From Polychytrium aggregatum (taxonomy: Eukaryota; Chytridiomycota; Chytridiomycetes; Polychytriales): a DNA stretch of 64,000 nt. The notes beneath the pieces are model-generated. The model was given only the letters and a program-made list of their open reading frames with translations, searched no databases and was not told the origin of the DNA. The DNA is taken from assembly GCF_025602895.1 (NCBI RefSeq), contig NW_026516217.1, positions 434,001-498,000 of the forward strand, given 5' to 3'. Shown piece after piece: positions 13,375-41,192 of the stretch (the stretch's first letter is position 1; the number at the start of each line of letters is the position of its first letter). The position numbers and the translations under genes are program-made.

Positions 13375-13375
13375 C

Positions 13376-13545
13376 CACGCTGGCATCGACGAGCGGGGTC
13401 AACCCTCACAGGTGTGCTGCAAGTGCCGAGAGCCCTCTCGACTGTCGGATCGAGATGCACCAGGTATCGCCATATCGGAGCAGTATCGAACACATCTGGT
13501 CGACTGGCATTGACAGAGCAATGCAGGAGTGTAGTGCATGCTTTC
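13376..13545 (-). repeat. Dispersed short repeat at left end of copy A
   Basis: It holds GGTCGACTGGCATTGA at 13498-13513, shared with 16887-16902, and CGAACACATCT against CGAATACACCC. The outer 120 bases (GTGTGCTGCAAGTGCCGAGA) resemble the sequence at 8728-8760 (GTGTGCTCACAGTGCCGGGA) next to solo copy 1. Confidence 0.65.
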
Positions 13546-14058
13546 AATCCTCTGCCATTTCTCATGCGTTGCTTCCACGGATGCCCGATCATGGTGGCGA
13601 TGGATGGATGCATCGAGGACACAGCCATCTTCCTCAGTCGAGGCTGTGATCTCATTGGGGGTCTGGATGGACTGGAGTTGCAATGGTCATCATCACTCAC
13701 GGAGATCCACTAGCGACAATGCGGGAGAAGGCAGTGCCCCAGGATATCCACGACAACTGGTGTCTGCTCTCGATTGATTTCACGGCCAAGTGCGGTGTGT
13801 GGACTGTCATAGATTGTGAGGGATTTGGACTCGCTTCGGGTTCAGCAACCACAAAGCAGGATCGTCTCACACCACAGCACCAGAGCCATTCTCCAGTGTG
13901 AAGAACTCGCAATCCGATCGGACGAAGTGAGATGTCGGAAGTGGGAGGAAGAAATTTGAATTGGAAGAAACAAGTCGAAACGGAGTGGAGTGGAATGGAA
14001 AACATAGAGAGTAAAACCTGGAGAATGAACACATGACATTGAGCAGCTCCATGCTGAG

Positions 14059-14595
14059 CTACTTTGGGGATGAGCCAAAAGTGTATTCGAACGAATCGTT
14101 GAACACCACTCGACATCCCTTCGGAAGCCCGGAAATCCTCCGGCGAATGATGCTCCATCCAAGACTGAAGGAGCCAGCATATCGGCCAAACGTGCCAGCC
14201 AACAAGGATCGATCGGATGGCCTCATACTTGAGTCCAAATGCAGTGTCTTGAGCGAGGGAAGCTTGTCGACCAGTCCGCTGACTCTGCGAATCGATCGAG
14301 GGACGTGAAGAATCTCGAGCTTGGGATACGAGGGAATGTCATCCAGCGACGCCAATTCGCAGCAAGCTTGCAAGTCGAGGACTGTGAGGGAGCTTTGATT
14401 TACATGCAGATCGGCCAGGCTCACAAATTGACTTGAGAGGACGAGATGATTGAGCTTTGGCATCCTTGGGAGTTGGCTCAATGGTGTGGGGTTTGCGCGA
14501 GGAGATTGTGAGCTTGGTGAGGACGGAGGCTCCTCGGGAACATCGACGAGGGCCTCAATGCCGGTTGGAATGTCGAGCTCAAGCAACATCGGCAC
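14059..14595 (-). CDS. Downstream in-frame segment of LRR gene, copy A (C-terminal part)
   Basis: This segment reads in the same frame as the larger LRR frame immediately upstream and is separated from it by one TGA. It continues the LRR pattern (PMLLELDIPTGIEALVDVPE, LTVLDLQACCELASLDDIPS, YPKLEILHVPRSIRRVSG), so the two are probably parts of one gene. The last 50 codons differ from copy B: AGTFG here against VDMFD, and the ending FGSSPK against FGRFSR. It could be translated after an intron I cannot place, after stop read-through, or not at all. Internal Pro/Ser linker near residue 25. Confidence 0.55.
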   Translation of the reverse strand: MPMLLELDIPTGIEALVDVPEEPPSSPSSQSPRANPTPLSQLPRMPKLNHLVLSSQFVSLADLHVNQSSLTVLDLQACCELASLDDIPSYPKLEILHVPRSIRRVSGLVDKLPSLKTLHLDSSMRPSDRSLLAGTFGRYAGSFSLGWSIIRRRISGLPKGCRVVFNDSFEYTFGSSPK

Positions 14596-14631
14596 CGCTG
14601 ACGGCCAACCAAGAGACGCGAGTCCAATAGA

Positions 14632-16248
14632 TCATGGGGATGTGAGGAGCTTTAGCGAAGGCAGTTCCCTCGGCAAGCCTCCAAGGGACTCGGCGGACTT
14701 GGGGAGCTTTAGCGTCACCAACTTTGGCATCTCAGGCATTCCCTTGAGCGACTTGAGTTCACTGCATTCACTCAGGTCGAACCATGTCAGGCGAGGCAGC
14801 TCGTTTGGCATGCCTTCCAAGGACTCAATGGACTTGGGGAGCACAAGCGCTTTCAGATGTGGCATCTCGGATATTTCCTCGAGCGATTTCAATTGGTTAC
14901 ATTCTTTCAAGCTGAGCCTTTCAAGCATGGGCAGCTCGTTCGGCATGTCTTCAAGGGATTCGATGGACTTGGGGAGCCAAAGTTTCTCCAACTTTGGCAT
15001 CTCAGGCATTCCCTTGAGCGACTTGAGCTCACTGCATTCACGCAGGTCGAGCAGTGTGAGCATTGGCAGCACCTTCTTAGGGACATCTTCAAGGGACTCG
15101 ATGGACTTGGGGAGTTCAAGTTTCTTCAAATTCGGCATCTCGGGCAGTCCTTTGAGCGACTTGAGTTCACTGTACCTCCACAGGTCGAGCTGTGCTAGCA
15201 TGGGCAGCTCCTTTGGCATGCCTTCAAGGGACTCAATGGACTTGGGGAGCCAAAGTTTCTCCAGCTTTGGCATCTCAGGCATTCCCTTGAGCGATTTGAG
15301 TTCACTGCATTCACTCAGATCGAGCCTCGTAAGCATGGACAACTCCTTCGGCGTGCCTTCAAGGGACTTGATGGACTCGGGAAGCTGAAGTGACTTCAAC
15401 TTGGGCATCTCAGGCATTCCCTTGAGTGATGCCAGCTCACTGCATCTATTCATATCGAGCCTTGTAAGCATGGGCAGGACCCTCGGCATGCCTTCCAAGC
15501 TGATCAGCGAACCAGCCACTTGATTCCAGTCTCTATGCTCGATCGCCAGATTTGAAATATCGGAGAGTGTCTTGGGCCATCCAGACACTTCCAGAAATGA
15601 CACATCCTCGATTATCAGCTCCCGTTTGTTTGCGCCGTCGATCCATGGGATGTCGAATGGCAAAAGCCTGGAAACATAGGTGTTTCTGTCTCTGCTCTGG
15701 TTGGGTCGAATGGTGACACTGTACGCTCCTTCGACCACTATTGGCCACTGGGAGCGAAAATTTTGACTCTCAGCGATGGTGATCATCTCCTCGACGGATG
15801 GCTGCTTGGAACTGTTTGGTCTTGCGTCCTCAGGAAAGCGGAACTCTGGATCGGTCACTTGACAGAAGCGTTGCACTCGGCTAAACAGCTGTTCGTCTCG
15901 ATAGACTTCGGACCAGAACTCGTTCTCCTTCTCCAGCATCGATGAGTTGGTTGGCTTGTGCTGATTCTGGCGAAGTGCATAGCAGAGGAGCCCTTGGGCC
16001 ACTTTTAACCGATCGATGGAGGGATCGACACCGTCGAACAGGAATTCAGGTGTGATTTGCAAGTCGGCAAGCGATACCTGCACCCATATTTTGTCGGTAT
16101 CGAGGATGGCCCGAGTCTGCTTCGAGACTCTCAGAAGCTTGGTGAGCAAGGGTGGACTCGCAGTGTGAATGAAGGCGTCATTTGTGATCAGGATGGTGAG
16201 CAGGTCGAAGCGAGCGAGGTCCTCCTGGATCAGGGTTGATTCTGCCAT
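14632..16248 (-). CDS. F-box-like leucine-rich-repeat protein, copy A
   Basis: 538 residues from MAESTLIQEDLARFDLLTIL to the TGA at 14632. The start at 16248 is preferred because the longer upstream reading (to 16710) runs through GGATTGGAGT repeats and low-complexity sequence. Residues about 8-60 resemble an F-box (LLRVSKQTRAILDTDKIWVQ), followed by an unassigned 150-residue spacer. From about residue 250 there are six paired-LRR units of 45-46 residues: LTRLDLSECSELKSLKGMP, then EMPKLEKLWLPKSIESLEG. The hydrophobic spacing is that of LRRs, with Cys and Leu on the concave strand. F-box/LRR proteins usually act as SCF ubiquitin-ligase substrate receptors; that role here is inference. The encoded sequence is identical to copy B. 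Confidence 0.75.
   Translation of the reverse strand: MAESTLIQEDLARFDLLTILITNDAFIHTASPPLLTKLLRVSKQTRAILDTDKIWVQVSLADLQITPEFLFDGVDPSIDRLKVAQGLLCYALRQNQHKPTNSSMLEKENEFWSEVYRDEQLFSRVQRFCQVTDPEFRFPEDARPNSSKQPSVEEMITIAESQNFRSQWPIVVEGAYSVTIRPNQSRDRNTYVSRLLPFDIPWIDGANKRELIIEDVSFLEVSGWPKTLSDISNLAIEHRDWNQVAGSLISLEGMPRVLPMLTRLDMNRCSELASLKGMPEMPKLKSLQLPESIKSLEGTPKELSMLTRLDLSECSELKSLKGMPEMPKLEKLWLPKSIESLEGMPKELPMLAQLDLWRYSELKSLKGLPEMPNLKKLELPKSIESLEDVPKKVLPMLTLLDLRECSELKSLKGMPEMPKLEKLWLPKSIESLEDMPNELPMLERLSLKECNQLKSLEEISEMPHLKALVLPKSIESLEGMPNELPRLTWFDLSECSELKSLKGMPEMPKLVTLKLPKSAESLGGLPRELPSLKLLTSP
14640..15500. repeat. Tandem 135-138-base LRR-coding units, copy A
   Basis: Six consecutive units recur every 135 or 138 bases, each containing a near-identical block CTCAAGGGAATGCCTGAGAT on the coding strand. 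High nucleotide identity between units indicates recent internal duplication or gene conversion. Confidence 0.85.
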
Positions 16249-16649
16249 CGTTTCGGTTGAAGCAGGCGTGGCAGAAAGGAGCGATGGAGACAGGCCGCAG
16301 ATGGGAGACAGCCGAGGCAGATCGGAGAGGCGGGATGATGATGAAGAAGCAGGAGCAACGACGAACAAGCAGAGGCGACAGCGGGGTGTATGAGGGGCGA
16401 TGTGCTGATTTCTCGTTGATACCGTCCACATGGTGTGGCTTGGTGATACCATCGTCATACAGACCTGCTGTTTCGGGACGGGTGTCACCCAGCCAGAACA
16501 ATATTCCTGTGAAGCAAGATTCCATCCGATTCGGCCTGCAGCGACAGATGTGTGCTGGGCAACACATATCGACAGATGAATGGGATGACATGGACGGCAG
16601 AGCGTTGATGGGCAGTCCCAAGCCGGTGGACATGGGGAGTACGGTCTGG

Positions 16650-16705
16650 GACAGTTGTCTGAATCCACTCCAATCCACTCCAATCCGCTCCAATCCATGA
16701 ATGGC
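16650..16705. repeat. CCAATCCACT short repeat upstream of LRR copy A
   Basis: Three to four imperfect copies of CCACTCCAAT lie upstream of the LRR start. The mirror sequence is at 37568-37608 in copy B. CCACTCC runs also occur downstream of the LRR frame in both copies. Confidence 0.6.
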
Positions 16706-16857
16706 ATCAACGAGGTGAAGTGCCATGTGGGAGGTGGAGGGCTCGACAGTGTCCAACTTCTCCCGAGACTTGTCAGTGCTTTTTGATCGACTCAGTTTGT
16801 TTGGAATGGAACTGGACAGAGTGTTCCTGGGTGTCTCTCACGTCAATCCTTGCCTGT

Positions 16858-16996
16858 TGGTTTCCAGAGCAGTCTCGAATACACCCGGTCGACTGGCATT
16901 GATGTTGCGATGTGAGAGTGTGACTGTATGCATCCGACATTTGGACAGCTTCGTGCAAACTATTCTTGATATCAAGACACTCGACCTTCTCCGGTC
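16858..16996 (-). repeat. Dispersed short repeat at right end of copy A
   Basis: Terminal part of the inverted unit. The 16-mer GGTCGACTGGCATTGA at 16887-16902 also occurs in the same orientation at 13498-13513 near the left end, with flanking similarity (TCGAAcACA before, GAGTGT...TGCATGC-like after). The unit is therefore bounded by related direct repeats. Confidence 0.7.
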
Positions 16997-17905
16997 GCCC
17001 CGCCTCCCATTTCCTTGGAACCGGGACACTCTCCTTCGGCCAGGACTATTTTTTGTTCTGGAACGTGAAAACCCACCGCCCATCACAACCATGCCCAAAT
17101 AGTATTCTCACAGTGCCTGGAAATCAAGTGACTCGAACCCCCCAGTGTCTTGATATCGAGAGGCCACAGAGATGCCCAGACGGTCGGATGCATGCACCAC
17201 TTCCACAACAACGCAGCCAACAACATGATCGCATTATGTCACTTGATGGTCGCCACATGTGTATTCAAGACCATGCCACCTAAACCGACCGGTTGGATCG
17301 CACTTCCTGCACACTTGGTCCTCTGATACCGGGACAATGGACGCTATCCCATTTTATTTCTGGATTGATTGTATGATCGATGGCGAGCGTTCGGCTGTAA
17401 TTATGCAGTGAGAAAGCGTGGAGAGCGATAACGGGCGACTCGGCGCGGTGAATCCTTCTCTCCAGATCATGACGCCACGGCCGCTGTTTAACAGACCACG
17501 AGCTTTCAAGCAGCGAGTGAGAAAAATAAAGGGAGTATATGTGTGCGAGAACGTGTGCCATGAAGATAAAGATCAACGCAAGAGTGGTTGCGGATACAAG
17601 TATAGTCCTCTTCGCGAGGAGCTCTTGAAGAACGAAAGCACAGGTTTGGGAGTGACGGAAGCAGAGATTTGCCGCCTCGGGAACAAGTAAGGTGGTTGAG
17701 CGACTCACAGCTACTGCGAGACGGTGCCAAGAGCCAGCAGATCAAGATGGCTATCCACAACCTGTCGGATGAGGACCAGCGCGAATGTCAGTCAAGGACA
17801 GATAGGGCTAGGATCGCTCAAGCACACTTTGCGGGACTGCTCCATCAGGACTGCTGCGGATCCACGAATCTATGAACTGGGAGCCACCCTCGTCTGTTCT
17901 GGACA
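16997..17905. other. Gene-poor stretch between repeat copy A and MIC60
   Basis: About 900 bases without a supported gene apart from a possible terminal MIC60 exon near its right end. It holds a second solo copy of the dispersed repeat (17140-17285). The remainder is A+T-richer than its surroundings and shows no clear structure. Confidence 0.5.
17140..17285 (+). repeat. Dispersed short repeat, divergent solo copy 2
   Basis: The ordered blocks CAGTGTCTTGATATCGAGAG, GTCGGATGCATGCACCACTT and CATGTGTATTCAAGACCATG match the blocks seen at 8770-8905 and at 37273-37411. Confidence 0.65.
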
Positions 17906-20630
17906 CTAGTGCGTCGCACAATTCCTTGGGCTTACCTCGATGGCTTGGCGAACTTCGAGATGCCGGCGAGCAGCCTTCAGCCAGTCACCGGCCAGGATCT
18001 TGGGCCAGCCCTTGAGCTGATTTAGCTCCCGAGTGGCCTGCTCGAGCTCGCCGAGGCGTAGATGCTGCTCGGTGCGGGCCAGGATGGCCTCACAATCCTC
18101 GCCAGGAATCAGGCCGTGCTTCTTGAAGAGCAGGTTGGAGCTCACACGCGAGACAATGTACGAGATCGGGCCACCCTTCTCAGGCATAAGTTGGGCCTGG
18201 CGGACATACTTAGCAACGCTGTAGAAGCGTTTCTTCAGTCCGTCAAACGGAACGATGCCGCTCCTGGAGACATCCTCGGGAATCGACTCGAGCACAGACT
18301 CGATCAGGGCATCGCCCTTGCCAAGCTTTCGCAGGATCTGAATCTCGGTAGAGAAGGGCTGGACAGTGTTGGCATCCAACGAGCCTCGTAGGGCCTTCAG
18401 AGCCGTCTGAAGCAGATGGATGCGGTGCTTGAGCTGTCCGAACTCGCCGGCGTCGATGCTGATCTTCTCGAGTTGCATCAGCTTGAGGGAAAGGTGGTCC
18501 AGTCGGGCCAGGCGGCCGTCGCGCTCTTGATCAACTCGAGCCTTGATCTCCTTCTGCCAGTACTCGTCCAGATCTTTGGATTGGCGCACCAGCTCGGACT
18601 TGAACAAGTCGTTCAGGCGCTCAATCTCGGAAATCAGCTCGGCTTTGTGTTGGTCACGCTCGGTAGCAAGGACTCGCTCGTGCTTCAGGCTCTCAGCTTC
18701 GTGTTGCTCCGCTAAGGCGATCTGGAACCGGAGGACCTCGGTGTCCAAGAATGCCTTGAACTGCTCGCTCTGTTTCTCGAGCTCGCGGTCGATGTGACGA
18801 GCCTCCTCGGCCTCGATGTGAGCCAAAGCTAGGCTCAGGTCCACCAAGGTTTCGCGCGCCTTGGCCAGGCGTTCATCTGGATGCGACTGGAGATAGCTCC
18901 CGATGTACTCGGAGAGGGCGTGGATGCCTTCGGCCATACGCCGATAGCTGGGGTGCTCGTGTGTGATTTCAGGCAAGGTAAACTCTGGCAGTGTCGCGAC
19001 AGGAGCAGAGTCGGAGGCGGGCAAGGCTTCATCATTGCTCGGCCGGGCCTCGGATGAGCTCCTGGTCTCAATCAAACCAAGCAACAGGCTTGGGTCGCCG
19101 AGCTCGCCGTCAAAGCTGACTGATTCAGCAATTTCCTTGGTGAGGGCCGGGGTGGGGTCCTCGGGGATCAAATTGATGATCTCTTTGATCTCGACGTGCT
19201 TGATTTCGACAGGATCCACCAACAAATCGGTCTCGTTGAGCTCGCCATCGGTCGTCAGCGTCTCGGCAATCTCCTGGGTGAGTTCAGGGACAGGGTCCTC
19301 GGGAAGGATGTGGTGGCGATGATGAGACTCGCCTTGGGCTGACTTCTCAGCAGCAGCAGCCTCCGACTTAGCCACTTCGACGGCAGCAACGGTAGCAGCG
19401 GCGGCGGCAACAGCAGGGACAGTAGCTGTGGTCGTCTCGCGGGGCTGGGACGACTCCTTCGCAGCGGCGGGGGCAGCAACAGTCTCGGGCGCCTCGGGCT
19501 TCTTGGGAGACGAGGCCGGGCTGGGCTTGGTCTCGGTCGCGGGAGGGATAGAGGCTGATTTCTTGGGCTTCTCAGGCGCAGGCTGGCCAGTGACGGTGCT
19601 CTTGACGCTCTCGAACGTGTAGACAACCTTGTTGGAAGCGTCCTTGACCGAGTTCTCGACCTTGTGGTATGTATCGACAGTGGCTTCCTGGACCTTGCCG
19701 ACAAACTCTACCGTGTCGTGGACGTAACCACCAACGGTCGTGGCAATCTCGGAAGCCTTCTTGGAGGTGGTGTCGTAGATCTCCAGAGCCGAGTCCTTGG
19801 CATCGTTGGCAGCCTTCCCAACTTTGGAGATCGTTGCAGTGGCAACGTCCTTCGCGTCGCTGGCGGCTTGGACAGCTTCTCCGAGCTTCTTGTCGAAAGA
19901 TTGCTTGAGCTCGGTTGCGGTCTGGGTGGCCTGGCCGAGGGTTTCCGAAGCCTTGCTCGAATAGTCACCGATGGTCTGCGTGACCTTGGCCGTCTGGACT
20001 GACACTTGCTCCTGCACCTCCTGGATCGAGGTCGACTGGATCTTCTCAGCACCGATCTTGACGGCATCGAGGGCAGCTTCGCCTCCGGGGACGCCCGATT
20101 CAATCCAGAGCTTTCGGAACTGGGGGTCGTGGTTGGCATAGTAAGCGGCTCCGACATATCCCGATCCAAGGAGCACCGAGGTCGCAAGTGTCCATCGGAC
20201 CAGCGAGAAGGACTTTGGTGTGGATGAGGCCGAGGCGTAGAGCCGGATGCCCTGCGGGACCAAGTAAAGCAGGCAAGCGTCAGTGGCAAGACGGAAGCAG
20301 AGCTGCCGACCAGGGGTGGGGAGTTTGAAATGGCAAGCCGAGTTTGCGACACGCACGCCGACTGAGGGCTAGATCCTCCTGGTTGCCGTAGTATCAACAT
20401 GCGCCAGATGTCCTCTGGGATTGGCCATTGGAAAGGCGGCAGGATCCAGTATCCCTGATAACGAGGCCGCGGCGCTGTGGCATCCCTGGCCGACAGCGGG
20501 AGGCCGAACTGAGAGTCGCGCGAGGCTAGATCCACGAGGGCCGGCGACGAGCACTTCAGCAGGAAGTTGTATTTACCTTGTGCATGAACAGCGAGTGGGA
20601 CGGTCTGGCGACTCTTCCAGTCCGTAGCAT
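17906..20630 (-). CDS. MIC60: MICOS complex subunit Mic60 (mitofilin)
   Basis: Inner-membrane organiser of cristae junctions. Exon 1 (20630-20577) encodes a presequence, MLRTGRVARPSHSLFMHK. After a 325-base intron, exon 2 (from 20251) starts GIRLYASASSTPKSF, followed by one membrane helix (LVRWTLATSVLLGSGYVGAA), a long Ala/Ser/Thr/Pro-rich intermembrane stretch, coiled coil (about 18400-18900), and the mitofilin signature ending LNQLKGWPKILAGDWLKAAR then HLEVRQAIE. A GTAAGC donor follows IE at 17935, so a short last exon may lie further left; reading straight through stops at 17906. An internal duplication occurs in the linker (PEDPVPELTQEIAE and PEDPTPALTKEIAE). Confidence 0.9.
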
Positions 20631-20942
20631 GGTTGCGGGCGACGACGGAGGGAAATGAGCCGTTGGCTGAGGCAGATGGTGCTGGCAGATGCCTTGGCTC
20701 ATCCAGGACCAGAGCCCCCGTTTTGCGCTTTTTCGAGGGCGCGGACAGCGATTCGAGTGCACTCGAGCCAGACAACACCCTGGATTGTCGCTGTCGCACA
20801 GACACTGGATCGAGCCGGCGGGCCGGCAGAACCCACACCCGCACAGCGACCGGCAACCGGCAGCACAGTCGATTCCCAGGCTCGGCACGATCGCAGCCAC
20901 GCAGTATATTATGCATGCAGCGCATCTCGGTGGTCGATCGGC
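20631..20942. other. MIC60 promoter and RRP41 3' flank
   Basis: About 310 bases between two minus-strand genes, GC-rich. No coding sequence is supported. Confidence 0.5.
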
Positions 20943-22490
20943 CTATGAGATGGTTTGGGCCCTTGTCTTGGTGATCTTGCGGATGGCCTCGTCCAGGATG
21001 TCCAGGACAGCCGCACACCCGTCGTTGGCCAGGTTCATTGTCGCCTCAAAGTGGTCCAGATGCAGCCGTGCTTCGAGCTGCAAGCGAGCGAGCGAGAGTG
21101 CATCGTGGTGCGATGTCGTTGAGCATTGGGGCAGGCATTTAGCGGCCCGGTAGTCGGCCTGACACCCAATCTTGCGGTAATCAGAGCTCATCCATGCAGA
21201 TATTGAGGACGGCAAAGCTTACCCCAAGCATAGTGACCTTGCCTGTCTTTGGTAGAATGGCCATTGTGAGAGCCGGCACTTCGGCCATTTCCTCGATATA
21301 GTTCAGATCTGACAGCAAGCGAGACCGGGCGCAGCAGCAATCACAGCGATGCAAGATTAGCTTGGAGACCCAGTCGTGCCGCTCTGTCACTTTCGCAAAT
21401 ATGCTGTGACCGCACTACAGCGACGAAGGTTGTAGCATCGAGCCTCGGTGCCTGCTCCTCCGTTACGAGTACTGATGTTGTCGCGACGGCGGACGATCGC
21501 CGTCCCAAAGCAATTCCAACGCGCAACTCAACTCACCCAAGATGGCGTGGTCGTTGGCGAATCCGGACGAGCAGGCAGCGACATAGTCGGTCATGGCGAT
21601 GCCTGCATCAATCAGGGCGAGAGTAGTTGCGTTGATGGCAGTATGCAAGATGCCTGCCTCGTGTGCGCAGTCGTATGGGACGAATCAGCATCTAGAGTGA
21701 TGGTTCCGTGTCCGATCCAACAGTCATCAACGTCGCATGCGACGCAGCCGATCACGGGCAAAGCAAGAGAGCGTTCACATATCCGCAGCTTGCTGGCCAC
21801 ATACCGCCGTCTGTCTGAAGAATCTGGATGAAGATGGCGATCTCGGAGCGAGCATACGCCTGTGCCATGATCACCGGCTCAAAGGTTTGTCGGATGGTGG
21901 TGCCGAGTTCAAGAAGACGTCTGGAGGTGGGCAGAATTACATGAGTGCCAGACGCTGGCTCGACGCAGTACTAGTCTTTGAGTACATGGCAGGATATCTG
22001 CCAGATGACTGTGGTGGTCTACTAGACAGATGCCCAAGCCGTTTTGCCGGTGGCTCAGCGAGAGCATTTCATGCGGAGCTATCGAGGACGCACCTGTCCT
22101 GTCGCAACTTCTCCTTGTGCTCGCCCGAGCTGAAGCTTGCGACATTGAACTCGACTGATATGAACGCTCGATCGTGGACGGCCTGACCTTTTTTCTGTGG
22201 CTACGTTGCATATCATACCGCCCAAGGGCCATGTTGTGTGGATCGATACTATTGTTTAGTCCAGGCCCGCAACCTCGACATCCAGGGGCATGCCGGGCGG
22301 AGGACGCATCAAACTGGGCAAGCCGCCGTGCGTAAAATACCTCTCGAGGTCCGTAGACGGCTGCCAGACACTTTGTGTTTCCAATCTCGATGTATGCAGA
22401 CCCGTCGGCCTGTGTGAAGATCCCGGTGCGGCAGTTGATGCGTCTCAGCTCACCAGGCCGCCTTCCATCCACTCGCAGTCCTGCGGACGG
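20943..22490 (-). CDS. RRP41: Exosome complex subunit Rrp41 (Ski6/EXOSC4)
   Basis: RNase PH-fold subunit of the exosome ring for 3'-5' RNA processing and decay. Minus-strand exons read: LRVDGRRPGELRRINCRTGI then FTQADGSAYIEIGNTKCLAA and VYGPRE (about 22340-22480); a helix with the RQTFEPVIMAQAYARSEIAI-type segment (about 21820-21910); ILHTAINATTLALIDAGIAM then TDYVAACSSGFANDHAILG (about 21533-21650); DLNYIEEMAEVPALTMAILP (about 21230-21310); and a final exon LEARLHLDHFEATMNLANDG to the stop at 20943. Order and motifs match human EXOSC4 along the whole length. A TAA lies in frame just before the first exon shown, so the true initiation exon is further upstream and not identified. Confidence 0.88.
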
Positions 22491-23411
22491 AATCGAAAGT
22501 CGTTAGCGCCACGCTGCCGCGATAGGGCCGTTGCCGAGCGCTGCACTAACTAATAACCACATTGCTGCATCGGGTGCCGCCCTCGCAGCTGGATGCCCGA
22601 TGGCGATGGTCGGCCAAACACGGCATTCACGATCGCATGCTTGTCAGCGCCAAACAGTGTGAGCTGACGTACCCTCGGGGGAAACGATCTCGTGTCTTGA
22701 CATGGCAGGGCGCTATCGGTCTTGGTGCAGTGGGGCGATGGCGGGGCGATGGCGGGGCGCTTGTCGATTGCCGTGCTCCTGCAGCCCGTATTCCAGATCA
22801 GCAACAGCGAGGCCAGTTCCGAGATCGGCGCTCCGAGATCCAGATCCAGATCCAGATCCCGCCCGGCTTTGCACGTATTAATTTAATATCTGTGGCCAGA
22901 CTGTGGCCGGCCGCGCGGCGCCTGTCCCCGGCCTCCGATCGCACCATCTTGTCCTTGCGACCCATCTCGGCCGTCGTCTCGGCCATCCGTCTTGGCCATC
23001 GTCCTTCCTGCTTGGCGCTGCATACCCCTCCCGGCGCAGTCTCGCTCCCGACGCTGCTACTACCGCCGTCTGCTTGTCCTGCGGCCTTTGCTCTCGCTCT
23101 CCGCTCAGTCCCCCATGGGCACTGCCCCTCCGTCTGCTCTTGTTGCTGCAGTGCCCCCCTCCGCGCTTCGCTCTTGATCGTCAGGCTCCCTCTGCCCTGC
23201 CCTGGCGTTTGTCCTTTGGCTCGACAGTGCAGATCCCGGCCTGTGCCTGCTGCATCTCTGTTTTCATATTTTTATCCCGCGGCGCTCTTGCTGCTCTGTT
23301 GCGTCAGGCCGTGGGCTGCCGCACCCTGTTCGTTCTATTCTCCTTTCAGTGCTTGTGATCCCACAGTTCCTGTCTTCGCACCAGCGGCCCCAGCTGTGAG
23401 CAGCCCTCGAA
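22491..23411. other. Divergent promoter and 5' regions of RRP41 and ADA3
   Basis: About 920 bases, C+T-rich on the plus strand from 22900 on, which suggests a long 5' UTR of ADA3. It contains short tandem repeats: CGATGGCGGGG (about 22735-22762) and CCAGAT (22839-22862). Open frames here lack any recognisable protein. The RRP41 first exon should be inside the left part. Confidence 0.5.
22837..22862. repeat. CCAGAT hexanucleotide repeat
   Basis: Four tandem copies in the divergent RRP41/ADA3 promoter region. Confidence 0.7.
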
Positions 23412-28539: not shown

Positions 28540-28923
28540 TGGGCCCTGATAACGACATGGCGGGCATATCGCAGTTCTGGTTCGCAGAGTCTCGTGGCAA
28601 CCGCTCACTCTTTACTTTGCTTATGGACAGACGAGCTCACTCGGTAGCAAGCCAGCCGTCCGGAAACAAGCCGGCATCGATGAGGAGCGCATAACAAGCT
28701 TTGCGCCTAGCTCTCTCCCCTCTGGATGGGCCATCTGATCCGGCGCGGCCTGAAAGAACCAACAATTTGCCTATGCTCGAGCACGGCGCAGGCAGAATAC
28801 CAATTCCCTCCAAGTATCCGATGTTCCCTCAACAAATCCACAGAGAGACAAGCCGACGCCGTGTTCGCATGTGCAGTTGTCCTGATACGCAACGGGGCGA
28901 ATTGGATCGGATTGACACCAATA
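28540..28923. other. Convergent gap between ARL6 and the mutarotase gene
   Basis: About 384 bases of 3' flanks. Nothing supported. Confidence 0.5.
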
Positions 28924-30145: not shown

Positions 30146-30175
30146 GTCGGATCGTTTCGACAGATGGCGGGCCGG

Positions 30176-30229
30176 ATGGATAGATGGACGGATGGACGGA
30201 TGGATAGATGGACGGATGGACGGATGGAT
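30176..30229. repeat. GGATGGACGGATGGATAGAT tandem repeat upstream of the mutarotase gene
   Basis: Imperfect GGAT/GGAC/AGAT tetranucleotide array of about 54 bases beginning about 30 bases upstream of the mutarotase start codon, so within its promoter or 5' UTR. Confidence 0.85.
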
Positions 30230-30411
30230 TGCGGAGCGCTGGGAAAGAGGAGGGTGCGGCGCGCTTGCCCATGAGCCGGACATGGCCAAAGGCTTCCATG
30301 CTCCCTGGGACCTGGTTTCCGTGCTCTGCTCCGAGACAAGCCCTCGAGCCCAGACCCAGAATTGTATTGCTCGAACCCAGCCAACAGCATGGCTGCAGGT
30401 CCACGAGGACC

Positions 30412-33022: not shown

Positions 33023-33557
33023 GTTTGGGCGAGACGGAGGCAGGATGCAGGCCCGCTTGCAGAGCGGATGCAGACGCAGTCCATGGGGCGCGCTGGCCCG
33101 GTGTCATGCCGCAAGCCCCGACCAGGGTCTCACGTGCGACAGAGTCGCACAACACACGTGACCACACTGATCAGCCGATCGCAGACGTGGCTTGGGCGGG
33201 CGCCAAATGAATGAACGGGGCGGGCGAATAAATTCGAGCGCGGCGGCCGGTTTCTCTTTCGCCTTCGAACAATTATAATCCGAAATGCGTCCTAGTGTGG
33301 AGACCTCTATATCCATGGAGGCCCTCCCGTTCCCGACGTCAAAGATTGAAAGCCAGTTCTAAAAACCTCCCTACGAGATATTCTCTGATGTGGGGACACC
33401 TGAGGGCTAGGACAATTTTATTGCGATCCATCTGTCGCTTTGGCTGTGTCGGTTTGCTGCTTGGCTTCCACCGAGCTCTCTCCTCCATCTGCGGTGGCAT
33501 CGCTGGGTTGAGATCCCACGGATCCTTCCGGGTTGCTGCCTGGGATCTTGCTTGGCT
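33023..33557. other. Galactokinase promoter and SET-gene 3' flank
   Basis: About 535 bases. No gene supported. An A+T-rich CAATTATAAT stretch lies near 33270. Confidence 0.5.
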
Positions 33558-35024
33558 CTACTCGTCCGGTCGCTCCTCGTTGAGCCGGCTGGACTGCACC
33601 GCTATCCATTCGAGCCCGTACTCGAGAATCTCCTTCTGCCCGATCAGGTAGATGAGCACATACCGCTCCCTTGCGCTGGACGTGCGGGCCAACCGTGCGG
33701 TGTCTTCCGCAAGCGTCGACGGGTAGGCATCCCTCATCGTGGTCAGGAGGAGCTTCAGCGTATCGAGGATCTGCCGTTCGTTGCGCATCGAGATGGGCCA
33801 GGCCATAATGTCTGCGAGATTGCCGATTTCGAATCCCTCGAGCTCGTCCAGAGTCGCAAAAAGCAGGCGCAGAGAGCCGACGAGCGTCTGCGGCACCCCG
33901 CCGGCAGCACCCAGGGCAATCTCGTGGTCCAGGCCGAGACCCAGGTCTTCGCCCAGCTCCAGCAGCAGCTCCTTGCGAATGTTCAGCAGGTAGTCGCCGT
34001 CCTCGTCTTCACTGGGGCTTGTGAACGACAGCGCGATGCGCTCCAGCGGGTTGTCCAGCAGCGAGAAACCGTAATACATCAGTAGCTCCCAGTTGGCGAG
34101 CCTGTTGTACGTCAGCGTCAGCGGGAAGTCCGCAGGATACTCAGCCAACCGAGATTTGCTCGAAATCCGGATCTCCAGGCAACCTGTCTCGGTCGAGATG
34201 CCACAGGATTCCAGCTCGCCTTGGATCGAGTGGTTGGCGAGGTCGCCAAGCGGCACCAGCACGGTGCTGAGCGCTTCGGGGTCGGGGCCGTCAGGTGCGC
34301 CGATACGCATCTTGAATGCTCTTGACTCGACGACCATGTGGGCCCACAGGAACGCCGGGAAGGATGCATGCTCGGCCGTGACGAAGCTATCGCCGAACTG
34401 TTCCGCAAGCGGAGTCATCACGGCATCGTATGTGTCTTGGACCTGTTGCCGAATGCCCCGGGCAAGCTCTGCGAGCGGCGAGCCGTCAAGCCGAGCCAAG
34501 TCGTCGTCATCGAAGAGAAGAGGCGAGTTGGCGAACGCTTCCGGTAGCAGGTCGACGTACGGATGCCAGGGTGTCCGCACAGGATGGGATTTTGCGTGCA
34601 GCAGCGTGAGCATCAGCAGCAGGTGGTCATCTTGGTAGTCCAGGATGGTGGTGCTCGGGAGACCCTCTGGCGAGGGAAAGACGGCCTCGAAGACGGCAGC
34701 CAGTGTCGGGATCTTCCTGGCCGAGTGCGAGCCAACGAGGACATCGACGGGGATGGAGCATGCCAGCTCGGACCGATGCAGCGGCTTCTTGGCAACGAGG
34801 ACGTATCCGTTTGCGCTGTCGGCTCGCACATCGACGTTAGCAAGCACGCCGGCACGGCCGATCCATTCGACAAAGCGAGCCACCTTGGCCAACATCGCAG
34901 ACGAAGACGACTTGGGGGAGCGGTCGATGCGGCCAGATCGAGTGCGACGGCCACGGCCCGAGAGCAATCTGGCGAGGTCTGGGATTGTGGCAAGCCATCC
35001 GATTTTTTTTTTCTTGCCTGGCAT
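33558..35024 (-). CDS. SET-domain protein methyltransferase (SETD3/RKM-like)
   Basis: Single-exon frame with a start at 35024 (MPGKKKKIGW); an alternative start at 34895 (MLAKVARFVEWIGRAG) also fits the family. It belongs to the SET plus Rubisco-LSMT substrate-binding class, which methylates ribosomal proteins, elongation factors or actin. N-terminal FVEWIGRAGVLANVDV and GYVLVAKKPLHRSELACSIP form the SET-N part; the long iSET insert is followed by LVPLGDLANHS (NHS, AdoMet site) and NWELLMYYGFSLLDNP (YGF and catalytic Tyr). The C-terminal helical domain has LRLLFATLDELEGF and TARLARTSSARERYVLIYL. The substrate cannot be deduced. Lack of introns is unusual here but shared with the peroxidase gene. 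Confidence 0.82.
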   Translation of the reverse strand: MPGKKKKIGWLATIPDLARLLSGRGRRTRSGRIDRSPKSSSSAMLAKVARFVEWIGRAGVLANVDVRADSANGYVLVAKKPLHRSELACSIPVDVLVGSHSARKIPTLAAVFEAVFPSPEGLPSTTILDYQDDHLLLMLTLLHAKSHPVRTPWHPYVDLLPEAFANSPLLFDDDDLARLDGSPLAELARGIRQQVQDTYDAVMTPLAEQFGDSFVTAEHASFPAFLWAHMVVESRAFKMRIGAPDGPDPEALSTVLVPLGDLANHSIQGELESCGISTETGCLEIRISSKSRLAEYPADFPLTLTYNRLANWELLMYYGFSLLDNPLERIALSFTSPSEDEDGDYLLNIRKELLLELGEDLGLGLDHEIALGAAGGVPQTLVGSLRLLFATLDELEGFEIGNLADIMAWPISMRNERQILDTLKLLLTTMRDAYPSTLAEDTARLARTSSARERYVLIYLIGQKEILEYGLEWIAVQSSRLNEERPDE

Positions 35025-35390
35025 GAGGGCTTGTGGGCTGGACCTGGTTCTGCCCATCATCAGCCAGGGATTTCTGCCCCGTCGACCGACTCTCCCGATC
35101 CAACCCGCTCGGCTCTGCATCAGCCCCATCCAGATACTGCCCGAACATGTCGGATCAACCAGGTGCCGCTCGCTGTGGCCGATACTGCCAACCCTCGCCT
35201 AGATCTGCCCCGCCCTCCACCCAATTCATGTGTCCGCGATCACTAACGCAGCCCTTCTCATCTCCATATCCTGTCTTCCTTCGCCAACTCCACACCGGCG
35301 TGGCGATCCGACCACACCCCGTAGCAGGCGACTCATCCAGCGGCTCAAAGGTTGGCTGCTAATCCTCGACCCCAGCAACCGACGCGGGGC
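35025..35390. other. Divergent region between the SET gene and RPC4
   Basis: About 365 bases holding both promoters. RPC4 initiation could be inside the right part; no ATG in frame with the recognised RPC4 N-terminal exon is visible after 35340. Confidence 0.4.
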
Positions 35391-37085
35391 AACCGCATTG
35401 GCTCTGCCCGGCAGAGCATCTCTTCTCATCCCAGCGCCGTTTTCGCTTGCGTCCAGCCCAAATTTGCACCACGAGTTCCTCCTCGGAAGGTCAAGACCGA
35501 GTATGTCCCCGATCGTGCAAGCCCCTCATCCACTCGGCTGCCAAATCGACCAGAAATGTGGCCGGATGGGTGGCTGTGCCCGCAAGCACTTCTGAGCGAG
35601 GGAGAATCTGGATCGGGAGATCTCATTTGTATGTGTCGCATTCATTTTTTTGAAGGTCAGCAACAGAAGCAGCACCTGTGAGTTTACTCCCGCGGCATGC
35701 GATCGCCAACCGGCAATCACATCCATCGATATCGTAGATCTTGGAGCCGTGATCGACCGACGTTAAGTTACTATTAGGTCGCATCGCCTCATCTCCACGC
35801 CCTTCGAAATTGACATTCTTTTGTCGGCAGACACCGACTCGCACAGATGCCCCCCGTGGTCGCGGACGAGGTCGAGGTCGCGGAGGCTCTGAGGCTGGTC
35901 GAGGCAGTCGTGGCGGTCGAGGAGGAGGTCGGGGTCGAGGCCGAGGCCGAGAAGAGCCTGTGCTTTCGATGGCTGGCCCGTTTGCGATGGGCCCGGCCGC
36001 ATACGTTCCTCGGACAAGAGCAGCCACGGCGATCGTTACGCCGTCAGCGCCCGTGTCGGCCAAGTCAGAAGTCATCGCTGAACAATTCGACGATGTCGAG
36101 GGGCCCACTGGCTTTGACCCTTCCGACAACTGGACACCAGTCGAGCTTGGGTCGATCAGGTCTGTGTTGGCCAAGCCTCCTACCGCCATCAAATCAAAGA
36201 AAATCAAGAGTAGGTTCTCCTCCGACCTCCCCTGCGAGTGTGCTCAGCTGCATGTTCTCGCTACCGACGCTTGGAGAGTGTGCCGATGGCTGCAATCCCC
36301 CCGCCAGCAGCCCATTTTCACAGATGCTCATGGCTATATGTATTCGACAGTCAAGCCCGATCCGGACGGCGACGTGAGCATGGGGACAGCAGGCGATGAT
36401 ATCATCGACGAAGAAGAGGAGCCAAATGAACCAGTCAAGCCGGAGAGTCTTCGAGAAAATGTCTTTGATGCCGAGGTAGCTGCTATTTGTGAATCATTGA
36501 ACCGCGGCTCGGGGACCAACGAGCGAATCATCTGTATCGCTGCTTGATCCGCGGACCTGTGTGCTCATGTCCTTTTGTTGGCCATTTGAACGACAGAATC
36601 CCACGCACGAGCTCTTGCACTTTCAGTTCCCGGCAGTTCTTCCAAAGCTCGAGAGCATGCCCGTCGATGGCGATACCATCCCCATTGAGGATTTCTCGCG
36701 ACACCCTTTCAGCCGATTCGAGGGCAAGCTCGGCAAGCTTGTCGTGCGGCGGTCAGGAGCGGCCCAGATCAAGATGGGAAACATTGTTTTTGATGTAAGT
36801 ATTGAACAGCTATGACCGGTTCGGGATTTCGGTAGCCGTAGTAACTGTGACGACCTTGACGGCTGCATCGGAGAATTGTTGTGGATGGGCTGCCTTTGGG
36901 TGAAGGGGTACTCACGTCCTCGACTCCTCCCCATTTTGACTCGATACAAGGTTGCACCGGCACCGGATATAAATATGTTACAACAGCTGGTGGTCGTCAA
37001 GCCAGAAGCCGGCAGGGCAGTTGTCCTCGGGGACGTCAAGAAGCGTCTGGTGTGCACCCCGAACCTGGACTCGCTTCTCAAATAG
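35354..37085 (+). CDS. RPC53: RNA polymerase III subunit RPC4 (Rpc53/POLR3D)
   Basis: TFIIF-like subunit of Pol III involved in termination and reinitiation. The N-terminal part reads NPRPQQPTRGNRIGS and then PKFAPRVPPRKVKTE (about 35458-35502). After an intron ending near 35830 comes an Arg-Gly-rich tract (GRGRGRGRGGSEAGRGSRGG), then DVEGPTGFDPSDNWTPVELG. Later exons have MYSTVKPDPDGDVSMGTAGD, the conserved FQFPAVLPKLESMP (about 36625), FEGKLGKLVVRRSGAAQIKM and GNIVFDV. After an intron near 36795-36930 the final exon gives LTRYKVAPAPDINMLQQLVV and KKRLVCTPNLDSLLK, stopping at 37085. The RPC4 C-terminal domain is complete. The start codon is unresolved. Repeat copy B begins 188 bases after the stop. 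Confidence 0.83.
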
Positions 37086-37272
37086 CAGGATTGGGGGCCG
37101 AATTTGAGTCGTTGTTACTGGACTCGTTGGTGATGTACTTGACTGTGGTGTACTGTCTGGGGAATATCGGTCACATTGAACCAGGACACCCTGTTCCTGA
37201 GCCAGGGTTACCGCTGTGGTCATCGTGAATACACCCTCATCCGATGCCCGCCATGACCAAACAATGTGCCAA
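37086..37272. other. RPC4 3' flank up to repeat copy B
   Basis: Contains a TGTATTCACG-type fragment reminiscent of the dispersed repeat. No gene. Confidence 0.4.
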
Positions 37273-37411
37273 GACCGGAGAAGGTCGAGTGTCTTGATAT
37301 CAAGAATAGTTTGCACGAAGCTGTCCAAATGTCGGATGCATACAGTCACACTCTCACATCGCAACATCAATGCCAGTCGACCGGGTGTATTCGAGACTGC
37401 TCTGGAAACCA
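37273..37411 (+). repeat. Dispersed short repeat at left end of copy B
   Basis: GAGTGTCTTGATATCAAGAA, GTCGGATGCATACAGTCACA and CAGTCGACCGGGTGTATTCG occur in the same order as in the solo copies at 8770 and 17140. Confidence 0.7.
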
Positions 37412-37567
37412 ACAGGCAAGGATTGACGTGAGAGACACCCAGGAACACTCTGTCCAGTTCCATTCCAAACAAACTGAGTCGATCAACAAGCACTGACAAG
37501 TCTCGGGAGAAGTTGGACACTGTCGAGCCCTCCACCTCCCACATGGCACTTCACCTCGTTGATGCCA

Positions 37568-37608
37568 TTCATGGATTGGAGCGGATTGGAGTGGATTGGA
37601 GTGGATTC
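37568..37608. repeat. GGATTGGAGT repeat upstream of LRR copy B
   Basis: Tandem GGATTGGAGTGG units upstream of the LRR gene. The complementary CCACTCC run is at about 40270-40287 downstream of the LRR frame. Confidence 0.6.
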
Positions 37609-38020
37609 AGACAACTGTCCCAGACCGTACTCCCCATGTCCACCGGCTTGGGACTGCCCATCAACGCTCTGCCGTCCATGTCATCCCATTCATCTGTCGA
37701 TATGTGTTGCCCAGCACACATCTGTCGCTGCAGGCCGAATCGGATGGAATCTTGCTTCACAGGAATATTGTTCTGGCTGGGTGACACCCGTCCCGAAACA
37801 GCAGGTCTGTATGACGATGGTATCACCAAGCCACACCATGTGGACGGTATCAACGAGAAATCAGCACATCGCCCCTCATACACCCCGCTGTCGCCTCTGC
37901 TTGTTCGTCGTTGCTCCTGCTTCTTCATCATCATCCCGCCTCTCCGATCTGCCTCGGCTGTCTCCCATCTGCGGCCTGTCTCCATCGCTCCTTTCTGCCA
38001 CGCCTGCTTCAACCGAAACG

Positions 38021-39637
38021 ATGGCAGAATCAACCCTGATCCAGGAGGACCTCGCTCGCTTCGACCTGCTCACCATCCTGATCACAAATGACGCCTTCAT
38101 TCACACTGCGAGTCCACCCTTGCTCACCAAGCTTCTGAGAGTCTCGAAGCAGACTCGGGCCATCCTCGATACCGACAAAATATGGGTGCAGGTATCGCTT
38201 GCCGACTTGCAAATCACACCTGAATTCCTGTTCGACGGTGTCGATCCCTCCATCGATCGGTTAAAAGTGGCCCAAGGGCTCCTCTGCTATGCACTTCGCC
38301 AGAATCAGCACAAGCCAACCAACTCATCGATGCTGGAGAAGGAGAACGAGTTCTGGTCCGAAGTCTATCGAGACGAACAGCTGTTTAGCCGAGTGCAACG
38401 CTTCTGTCAAGTGACCGATCCAGAGTTCCGCTTTCCTGAGGACGCAAGACCAAACAGTTCCAAGCAGCCATCCGTCGAGGAGATGATCACCATCGCTGAG
38501 AGTCAAAATTTTCGCTCCCAGTGGCCAATAGTGGTCGAAGGAGCGTACAGTGTCACCATTCGACCCAACCAGAGCAGAGACAGAAACACCTATGTTTCCA
38601 GGCTTTTGCCATTCGACATCCCATGGATCGACGGCGCAAACAAACGGGAGCTGATAATCGAGGATGTGTCATTTCTGGAAGTGTCTGGATGGCCCAAGAC
38701 ACTCTCCGATATTTCAAATCTGGCGATCGAGCATAGAGACTGGAATCAAGTGGCTGGTTCGCTGATCAGCTTGGAAGGCATGCCGAGGGTCCTGCCCATG
38801 CTTACAAGGCTCGATATGAATAGATGCAGTGAGCTGGCATCACTCAAGGGAATGCCTGAGATGCCCAAGTTGAAGTCACTTCAGCTTCCCGAGTCCATCA
38901 AGTCCCTTGAAGGCACGCCGAAGGAGTTGTCCATGCTTACGAGGCTCGATCTGAGTGAATGCAGTGAACTCAAATCGCTCAAGGGAATGCCTGAGATGCC
39001 AAAGCTGGAGAAACTTTGGCTCCCCAAGTCCATTGAGTCCCTTGAAGGCATGCCAAAGGAGCTGCCCATGCTAGCACAGCTCGACCTGTGGAGGTACAGT
39101 GAACTCAAGTCGCTCAAAGGACTGCCCGAGATGCCGAATTTGAAGAAACTTGAACTCCCCAAGTCCATCGAGTCCCTTGAAGATGTCCCTAAGAAGGTGC
39201 TGCCAATGCTCACACTGCTCGACCTGCGTGAATGCAGTGAGCTCAAGTCGCTCAAGGGAATGCCTGAGATGCCAAAGTTGGAGAAACTTTGGCTCCCCAA
39301 GTCCATCGAATCCCTTGAAGACATGCCGAACGAGCTGCCCATGCTTGAAAGGCTCAGCTTGAAAGAATGTAACCAATTGAAATCGCTCGAGGAAATATCC
39401 GAGATGCCACATCTGAAAGCGCTTGTGCTCCCCAAGTCCATTGAGTCCTTGGAAGGCATGCCAAACGAGCTGCCTCGCCTGACATGGTTCGACCTGAGTG
39501 AATGCAGTGAACTCAAGTCGCTCAAGGGAATGCCTGAGATGCCAAAGTTGGTGACGCTAAAGCTCCCCAAGTCCGCCGAGTCCCTTGGAGGCTTGCCGAG
39601 GGAACTGCCTTCGCTAAAGCTCCTCACATCCCCATGA
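38021..39637 (+). CDS. F-box-like leucine-rich-repeat protein, copy B
   Basis: The 538 residues are identical to the copy A protein. The start at 38021 (MAESTLIQEDLARF) is chosen for the same reason: the open frame extends up to 37559 but only through low-complexity sequence. F-box-like N-terminus (residues about 8-60), unassigned middle with RDEQLFSRVQRFCQV, then paired LRR units. The TGA at 39635-39637 interrupts the LRR pattern in the middle of a repeat (ELPSLKLLTSP, stop, then SIGLASLGWPSAVPMLLEL continues the periodicity). I could not find a GT-AG intron that removes the stop and keeps frame. Conservation of protein sequence between copies may reflect recent duplication or conversion rather than constraint. 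Confidence 0.75.
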   Translation: MAESTLIQEDLARFDLLTILITNDAFIHTASPPLLTKLLRVSKQTRAILDTDKIWVQVSLADLQITPEFLFDGVDPSIDRLKVAQGLLCYALRQNQHKPTNSSMLEKENEFWSEVYRDEQLFSRVQRFCQVTDPEFRFPEDARPNSSKQPSVEEMITIAESQNFRSQWPIVVEGAYSVTIRPNQSRDRNTYVSRLLPFDIPWIDGANKRELIIEDVSFLEVSGWPKTLSDISNLAIEHRDWNQVAGSLISLEGMPRVLPMLTRLDMNRCSELASLKGMPEMPKLKSLQLPESIKSLEGTPKELSMLTRLDLSECSELKSLKGMPEMPKLEKLWLPKSIESLEGMPKELPMLAQLDLWRYSELKSLKGLPEMPNLKKLELPKSIESLEDVPKKVLPMLTLLDLRECSELKSLKGMPEMPKLEKLWLPKSIESLEDMPNELPMLERLSLKECNQLKSLEEISEMPHLKALVLPKSIESLEGMPNELPRLTWFDLSECSELKSLKGMPEMPKLVTLKLPKSAESLGGLPRELPSLKLLTSP

Positions 39638-39640
39638 TCT
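38790..39640. repeat. Tandem 135-138-base LRR-coding units, copy B
   Basis: The block CTCAAGGG or a close variant occurs at 38843, 38978, 39113, 39251, 39386 and 39521, that is every 135 or 138 bases (45 or 46 codons, two LRRs per unit). Confidence 0.88.
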
Positions 39641-39673
39641 ATTGGACTCGCGTCTCTTGGTTGGCCGTCAGCG

Positions 39674-40210
39674 GTGCCGATGTTGCTTGAGCTCGACATT
39701 CCAACCGGCATTGAGGCCCTCGTCGATGTTCCCGAGGAGCCTCCGTCCTCACCAAGCTCACAATCTCCTCGCGCAAACCCCACACCATTGAGCCAACTCC
39801 CAAGGATGCCAAAGCTCAATCATCTCGTCCTCTCAAGTCAATTTGTGAGCCTGGCCGATCTGCATGTAAATCAAAGCTCCCTCACAGTCCTCGACTTGCA
39901 AGCTTGCTGCGAATTGGCGTCGCTGGATGACATTCCCTCGTATCCTAAGCTCGAGATTCTTCACGTCCCTCGATCGATTCGCAGAGTCAGCGGACTGGTC
40001 GACAAGCTTCCCTCGCTCAAGACACTGCATTTGGACTCAAGTATGAGGCCATCCGATCGATCCTTGTTGGTTGACATGTTTGACCGATATGCTGGCTCCT
40101 TCAGTCTTGGATGGAGCATCATTCGCCGGAGGATTTCCGGGCTTCCGAAGGGATGTCGAGTGGTGTTCAGCGATTCGGTCGAGTACACCTTTGGCCGATT
40201 CTCGAGGTAG
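39674..40210 (+). CDS. Downstream in-frame segment of LRR gene, copy B (C-terminal part)
   Basis: In the same frame as 38021-39637, 12 codons after its TGA. It continues LRRs (LTVLDLQACCELASLDDIPS) and ends in a non-LRR tail with SFSLGWSIIRRRISGLPKGC. The last 60 codons hold ten amino-acid replacements and two synonymous differences from copy A (VDMFD for AGTFG; S for N; V for F; RFSR for SSPK at the end). Whether it is translated is unknown. Confidence 0.55.
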   Translation: MPMLLELDIPTGIEALVDVPEEPPSSPSSQSPRANPTPLSQLPRMPKLNHLVLSSQFVSLADLHVNQSSLTVLDLQACCELASLDDIPSYPKLEILHVPRSIRRVSGLVDKLPSLKTLHLDSSMRPSDRSLLVDMFDRYAGSFSLGWSIIRRRISGLPKGCRVVFSDSVEYTFGRFSR

Positions 40211-40724
40211 CTCAGCATGGAGCTGCTCAATGTCATGTGTTCATTCTCCGGGTAATATTGTCTATATTTTCCACTCCACTCCACTCCGTTTCGGCTTGTT
40301 TCTTCCAATTCAAATTTCTTCCTCACACTTCCGACATCTCACTTCGTCCGATCGGATTGCGAGTTCTTCACACTGGAGAATAGCTCTGGTGCTGTGGTGT
40401 GAGACGATCCTGCTTTGTGGTTGCTGAACCCGAAGCGAGTCCAAATCCCTCACAATCTATGACAGTCCACACACCGCACTTGGCCGTGAAATCAATCGAG
40501 AGCAGACACCAGTTGTCGTGGATATCCTGGGGCACTGCCTTCTCCCGCATTGTCGCTAGTGGATCTCCGTGAGTGATGATGACCATTGCAACTCCAGTCC
40601 ATCCAGACCCCCAATGAGATCACAGCCTCGACTGAGGAAGATGGCTGTGTCCTCGATGCATCCATCCATCGCCACCATGATCGGGCATCCGTGGAAGCAA
40701 CGCATGAGAAATGGCAGAGGATTG

Positions 40725-40894
40725 AAAGCATGCACTACACTCCTGCATTGCTCTATCAATGCCAGTCGACCAGATGTATTCGATACTGCTCCGATATGGC
40801 GATACCTGGTGCATCTCCAATCGACAGTCGAGAGGGCTCTCGGCACTTGCAGCACACCGATGAGGGTTGAACCCGCTCGTCGATGCCAGCGTGG
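40725..40894 (+). repeat. Dispersed short repeat at right end of copy B
   Basis: It contains AATGCCAGTCGACCAGATGT, matching the block at the left end of copy B in the same orientation, so the LRR unit is flanked by related direct repeats. Confidence 0.65.
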
Positions 40895-41192
40895 TGCTCA
40901 CAAGAGGGCGATTGGGACGACAGAGGTGATGCTTGAACTGCCCAAAGTGTCAAGCAGCCTGTCTCCCGGCCCTGAAGGCATAGCCCTTGCCTAGTTGTCA
41001 CGATGTATTGCCAAAGGCGATCACCACACTGCTCCCGTAGGACGCGCTGCTTGGTCATACTGATTGATCACTGTGGGTATGTATTCAGGACCCAGAAAGA
41101 GAATTCGGATAACTAATGAATCTGGCTCAAAACACTCTGCCCCCATTTCGTTTTGGGGAGTAAAATCAGGACTTGCATTTTGGAATGTAGCA
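40895..41192. other. Gap between repeat copy B and the peroxidase gene
   Basis: About 298 bases, A+T-richer toward 41080-41200. No gene seen. Confidence 0.5.

Follow-up and report, generated by a model that had tools for sequence, protein, structure and literature searches.

Inverted, near-identical copies of a dispersed LRR gene on either side of a 20-kb block of housekeeping genes in Polychytrium aggregatum

The locus

The window analysed in the present work is a stretch of 64,000 nucleotides (C57:434001-498000) from the P. aggregatum assembly, which comprises 64.7 Mb in 418 contigs; the genes of the window are eukaryotic. Two copies of an LRR gene, A and B, lie within it in opposite orientations, separated by a segment of housekeeping genes:

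13375..17018, minus strand: copy A, homologous block with its gene on the minus strand (3,644 bp; near-identical to B until 16996, followed by 18 bp and then TTGG)
14632..16248, minus strand: LRR ORF of copy A, 538 aa plus stop, protein identical to that of copy B
14059..14631, minus strand: cut-off C-terminal LRR domain of copy A, coordinates mirrored from B
17019..37268, no strand assigned: spacer with MIC60, RNase PH, ADA3, Arf-like, aldose epimerase, galactokinase, SET-type and RPC4 genes
37269..40894, plus strand: copy B, homologous block (3,626 bp)
38021..39637, plus strand: LRR ORF of copy B, 538 aa plus stop (LRR_4, 5.4e-19)
39638..40210, plus strand: in-frame C-terminal LRR domain beyond the shared stop, copy B (LRR_4, 3.6e-6)

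The distance between position 16996 in A and position 37273 in B, which corresponds to a spacer at 16997-37272, is 20,276 bp. The spacer genes had been named individually in a preliminary description of this DNA, and the names are supported at the level of Pfam domains: Mitofilin (3.5e-80), Aldose_epim (1e-36), RNase_PH (3.5e-12), Rubis-subs-bind (6.6e-12), RNA_pol_Rpc4 (2.2e-10), GalKase_gal_bdg (9.8e-9) and Arf (2.4e-5). The support is less complete for ADA3, since the Ada3 match (1.8e-4, 22.0 bits) falls under its cut-off of 24.5, and for ARL6 and RRP41, whose domain matches do not separate them from close paralogues. The Rubis-subs-bind domain accompanies SET methyltransferases, and the SET domain itself gave no Pfam match. 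Three unique probes of the region each matched a single place, the window itself; the spacer, whose probes are single-copy, is thus a unique segment. A probe of 5000-13374 likewise had its full match only at the window among the best 40 of 766 candidates, and the remaining 42 rows fall on a repeat near 8690-9063. A second haplotype contig of the locus was considered and rejected, because the three unique probes matched only the window.

Each copy had been said to carry the whole LRR gene. The 538-aa ORF is indeed present in both, but it ends at a shared stop codon, so that a C-terminal LRR domain is cut off. The domain is open in 5 of the 8 other members examined (C375, C230, C360, C112 and C408, whose first stop comes after 988-1033 aa; for C375 and C230 that stop lies just ahead of the end of the matched stretch, and C360 and C112 are apparently two haplotypes of a single place). 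A similar truncation, at 447 aa, is seen in the member at C57:368k, and the members on C146 and at C57:310k have several stops and a shifted frame. An unrecognised intron may be responsible for the shared stop instead of a true truncation. The best solved relatives of the LRR protein are the LRR domains of plant NLRs and bacterial internalins, with which it has repeat similarity only. Literature on chytrid LRR and F-box families contains, among the matches listed, no account of this dispersed LRR family.

Differences between the two copies

Over 3,622 bp, copy A (13375-16996) differs from the reverse complement of copy B (37273-40894) by 34 substitutions and 0 gaps, an identity of 99.06%, and the inverted repeat is therefore real. 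The features that bear on how the copies differ are the following:

37488..39945, plus strand: no A/B difference over 2,458 bp (pairwise comparison and random placement)
39946..40871, plus strand: stretch of B with 33 of the 34 differences
16997..17014, minus strand: 18 bp kept in A and absent from B (member alignment)

The copies had been described as exact reverse complements in length, with no visible indels, which holds inside these limits, but just beyond them B lacks 18 bp that are retained in A and in all four of the other aligned members (C375, C230, C57:310k and C212). Past the 18 bp, A and B agree for 4 more bases. The inner edge of the 3,622-bp alignment is for this reason not the end of the duplication.

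The clustering of real differences noted earlier was borne out by the statistics: 33 of the 34 fall at B 39946-40871 and the remaining one at 37487, which leaves a difference-free run of 2,458 bp that was reached in none of 200,000 random placements (largest random gap 1,310). All 34 lie outside the shared 538-aa ORF, with 33 within a quarter of the length. The identical run reaches 533 bp beyond the ATG on the upstream side; with a truncated gene besides, selection alone is a poor reason for the identity.

A dispersed LRR family with mosaic members

When copy A was used as a genome query, at least 81 matches were obtained among the best 40 of 58 candidates scored, and grouping by eye, again within the best 40 of 58 candidates, placed these in at least 34 places on 24 contigs, some of them apparently haplotype pairs, together with 6 places that have short matches only. 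The search for further genome copies and their ends that had been proposed earlier thus found them, with ends that differ among the members compared, and the A/B repeat is part of a dispersed LRR family. Among the matches listed, A and B are closest to each other (99%), followed by C146 (93%, part), C57:368k (92%, part) and C375 (89%, part).

The nearest relative of B, apart from A, changes from segment to segment when nine further members are compared. Upstream, the nearest is C57:310k (95.1% over 81 bases); in the promoter it is C375 (96.8%), and in the C-domain it is C146 (97.5%). At 40208-40560, C57:368k and C57:310k come closest (95.4%), followed again by C146 at 40561-40894 (97.6%) and beyond (99.3%). 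In the N-domain A and B are 100% identical, and the next best member compared, C375, stands at 92.9%. At the 33 differences within B 39946-40871, C146 has the A base at 27, the B base at 5 and a gap at 1, where one other alignment gives it the A base. Of the 27 sites shared by C146 and A, 10 have the B base in both C57 members; at 12 of the 33 differences these two carry the A base. Some bases of B are private and some are common to the C57 members; the few departures of A are mostly near its outer end. This distribution of bases among A, B, C146 and the C57 members, as read from the alignments, is that of patchy ectopic conversion.

Edges and flanks of the two copies

The sequences around the edges relate A and B to different third loci, and contain the following features:

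17006..17289, plus strand: inner flank of A, 87% to DNA beside an LRR member on C212 and C16; its first 13 bases overlap the block
17102-17251: dead TnpB/Fanzor-like fragment in the inner flank of A (E 0.033)
37178..37268, plus strand: inner extension of B, homologous to other members (C57:310k, 95.1% over 81 aligned bases)
37338..37402, plus strand: 65-bp direct repeat flanking the LRR unit, 5' copy, 80% to the 3' copy
40728..40791, plus strand: 65-bp direct repeat, 3' copy
40835..41033, minus strand: dead TnpB/Fanzor-like fragment at the outer edge of B (E 6.3e-11; tblastn match 41033-40728); copy A ends inside it
40895..43791, no strand assigned: outer flank of B with an animal-haem-peroxidase ORF (41196-42971, minus strand), 98% to C146:5455-8331

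Outside the borders, the flanks of A and B resemble each other no better than random pairs do, with best local scores of 19 and 22 compared with a median of 21 for 200 random pairs. The boundaries had been called sharp, and the outer one at 13375 is a plain discontinuity, but the inner end is an indel and the inner flank of A is old LRR-associated DNA: over 284 bp it is 87% identical to sequence of C212 and C16 that adjoins an LRR copy there, with order and orientation conserved. The C212 arrangement includes about 235 bp, between the short similar words CCCATTT..TTGG, that are missing from A. The promoter side of B falls 18 bp short of that in A, C375, C230, C57:310k and C212, beyond which B continues for about 90 bp that are common to other members. 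Comparison of the flanks agrees with the earlier statement that a target-site duplication is absent at A.

At the 3' side, three of the five members compared with B stop at 40788, one stops at 40835, and only C146 continues. The outer end of A carries sequence of the type found at B 40789-40894, and beyond 40894 the sequence of B remains C146-like, with 99.3% identity over the first 606 bp. The C146 copy of the peroxidase flank (L017) is 98% identical over 2.9 kb and directly adjoins the 3' half of an LRR gene whose frame is broken. Members A, C375 and C230 also have the 65-bp direct repeats at both ends, and C57:310k has them in weaker form; in the sequence pieces examined, C408 lacks both and C360/C112 lack the 3' one.

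A Fanzor-like repeat near the edges

The fragments at the edges are related to a second dispersed repeat, two copies of which have long open frames, one of 628 aa in L016 that runs off the locus and one of 514 aa in L041. The first of these is listed here:

L016:1247-3130, minus strand: Fanzor/TnpB-like element, long ORF

Both proteins match the TNB zinc ribbon PF07282 (38.1 and 38.5 bits, cut-off 26.3), and the repeat, which is high-copy among the best 40 of 273 candidates scored, is by its sequence probably a TnpB/Fanzor-like element. The best solved relative is the Fanzor of Spizellomyces punctatus, a non-significant match (E 0.3) aligned over the zinc-ribbon end, and a single-sequence structure model of the protein (mean pLDDT 41.2) was too poor to use for the question of a RuvC fold. 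Copies of the element were compared in 11 rows representing ten places (L014 and L040 are one place, L041 and L042 look like haplotypes; L015 and L043-L047 were also included). Different places are about 92-97% identical in DNA in the listed matches, and L041 and L042 share a 99.9% stretch that includes flank. Eight of the 11 rows (seven places) end about 100 bp after the stop codon, after which the flanks differ, and these eight have the common 3' end TGAATAAAGTGT(A); L041 and L042 stop matching earlier, and L045 is without flank by which to judge. By eye, the intact copies adjoin varied ORFs.

Dead C-terminal fragments of the element occur inside the outer end of A (E 8e-4) and at 8701-8763 (E 8e-4). 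The latter belongs to another dispersed repeat of the window at 8690-9060, which has at least 42 further matches among the best 40 of 766 candidates and of which 8701-8763 is a zinc-ribbon-like piece. The promoter-side sequence of the LRR family itself resembles a Fanzor fragment at the DNA level (74% over 89 bp to L035, which holds a longer remnant), and it is entered in C360/C112 by a remnant about 150 codons long.

It is conceivable that the shuffling of the LRR family is fed by breaks at Fanzor-like sequences, dead or live, so that a domesticated or parasitic nuclease diversifies it. Such a link, if true, would connect the diversification of a gene family with RNA-guided nucleases; we attach very little probability to it. 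Copy A does end in a Fanzor remnant on its outer side; on the inner side, a remnant-like stretch (16896-16983) stops about 35 bp before the end of A, and another remnant starts about 84 bp after it. Indels or breaks at the inner edge fall within about 22 bp of each other, comprising the 18-bp loss of B and the loss of about 235 bp in A, and in the same zone C375 and C230 have a loss from TTGG onward and C360/C112 run into the long remnant. Enrichment of Fanzor-like matches (E 0.01) at LRR loci was not seen, with matches in 3 of 9 10-kb LRR pieces (L017, L018, L022, L024, L028-L032) and in 3 of 7 without a listed LRR match (L019-L021, L023, L025-L027), in a small and non-random sample for which a 10-40-fold larger count would be needed. 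The matches in the non-LRR pieces are short; among the three LRR matches, those in L030 and L031 apparently represent two haplotypes of a single place, and L017 has the fragment shared with B. Among smaller loci, the same protein search matched L035 and did not match L010-L012 or L033. The formation of the outer edge of A by recombination between two Fanzor remnants was also considered and was rejected because the outer flanks of A and B are dissimilar; by eye, the outer flank of A could not be aligned with 11 aligned repeat loci.

Origin of the inverted pair

On balance we lean towards a recent copying of B-type LRR DNA onto an older LRR site at A, 20 kb away and in inverted orientation, with later patchy conversion. 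The donor would have been of B type, an already mosaic LRR gene followed by the peroxidase locus. The likeliest route is that a break at the A site was repaired with B-type DNA as template, with the promoter-side join made through homology and the outer join (13374|13375) without it. Other family members would afterwards have overwritten short stretches at the 3' end, for the most part in B, and B would have lost its 18 bp. We infer the direction of copying, the repair mechanism and the order of these events from the relations described above. The older site at A is suggested by the inner flank, with its C212/C16 similarity in conserved order and orientation; the direction from B to A by the B-type outer end of A, given that of the five members only C146 continues as B does; and the recency by the 100% identity of the N-domain, set against 92.9% for the next best member, and by the long identical run. 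The differences are non-randomly clustered beside that run, as would be expected of conversion, but homology bounding both sides is not found, since A has no homology to B beyond 13375, while the inner edge continues; the whole block is therefore not classed as one plain conversion tract. The copying model does not explain the coincidence that the 18-bp loss of B ends 4 bp from the inner junction of A. The promoter side on C146 is too short to assign the upstream sequence of the peroxidase locus, so that a past inversion could have swapped flanks. A donor outside the sample, C212-like in its upstream DNA and B-like in its downstream DNA, would fit as well.

The main rival is a simple recent inverted segmental duplication, in which a 3.6-kb piece of B was inserted at A by template switching or end joining and the inner flank of A resembles C212 through its landing beside an old LRR or transposon relic. 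This is a possibility to be taken seriously, although we think it unlikely. It agrees with the 99% identity, with the absence of a target-site duplication and of homology between the junction flanks, and with the recurrence of the LRR 3' half and peroxidase on C146, which implies that pieces of the locus move; at the outer junction of A, where there is no homology, plain insertion does nearly as well as copying. What random landing would not give is the inner side, where A keeps the 18 bp and its flank is in register with the C212 family context. That the pair is instead an assembly artefact, with one LRR locus placed twice or two haplotypes joined, we hold to be very improbable. Many loci do seem to be present twice with equal or similar scores (C376/C101, C364/C385, C360/C112), which indicates that haplotypes are partly separated in the assembly, but the three unique probes each have a single place, and the clustered differences, the 18-bp indel and the four different flanks, which relate differently to third loci, bear out the preliminary description in disfavouring a mis-assembly. 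Less credible still is a 3.6-kb mobile element ending at the repeat borders. The places related by eye (at least 34) and the 65-bp direct repeats that bracket the unit in A, B, C375 and C230 could be read in this way, but the ends vary among members (3' at 40788, 40835 or 40894, and at several points 5'), C408 and C360/C112 lack one or both repeats in the pieces examined, the unit's two largest ORFs encode nothing but LRRs, and the constant ends with a target-site duplication that would mark a DNA transposon were not found.

Relation to known systems

Ectopic gene conversion in dispersed multigene families produces clustered differences, long identical runs and mosaic affinities among paralogues. 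A and B share all three, and differ in having one non-homologous junction, so that a plain two-sided tract does not cover the whole block. The new pair is explained by known processes in a dispersed gene family, and it illustrates how a scattered LRR family continually yields both mosaic and near-identical members.

Near-identical inverted repeats are the usual substrate for non-allelic homologous recombination. The A/B repeats are inverted and highly identical over kilobases, with a unique segment between them; given 99% identity with 2.46 kb of perfect identity, a flip is mechanistically reasonable, and inversion of the spacer would plausibly be expected to be possible. The pair thus offers a concrete 20-kb housekeeping block that may differ in orientation between strains. 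In humans, inversions through inverted repeats have been documented, with orientations genotyped in individuals (PMC3961182, Aguado et al. 2014). The human set described there likewise has unique gene segments between near-identical inverted repeats, as at the FLNA and EMD locus, whereas A/B is known in one orientation and its repeats carry a dispersed-family gene with patchwise differences.

Like the Fanzor elements described in PMC3627910 and PMC10432273, the second dispersed repeat is present in many copies and encodes a PF07282 TNB domain. Its dead pieces in the present sequence are C-terminal, a state shared with the Chlamydomonas Fanzor families that PMC3627910 reports to be 5'-truncated. 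The present element differs from those in that its match to the solved S. punctatus protein is non-significant, and only dead fragments of it are found at the A/B repeat.

Other features of the window

No tRNA was found in the window. Known RNA families gave no match at the gathering threshold in 5000-50000 and none up to E 1 in 40500-41300. A subtelomeric placement received no support from the first 300 bases of three contigs, from which TTAGGG/CCCTAA is absent. The window also contains, at 56768-56873, a perfect array of about 21 copies of CCTTG.
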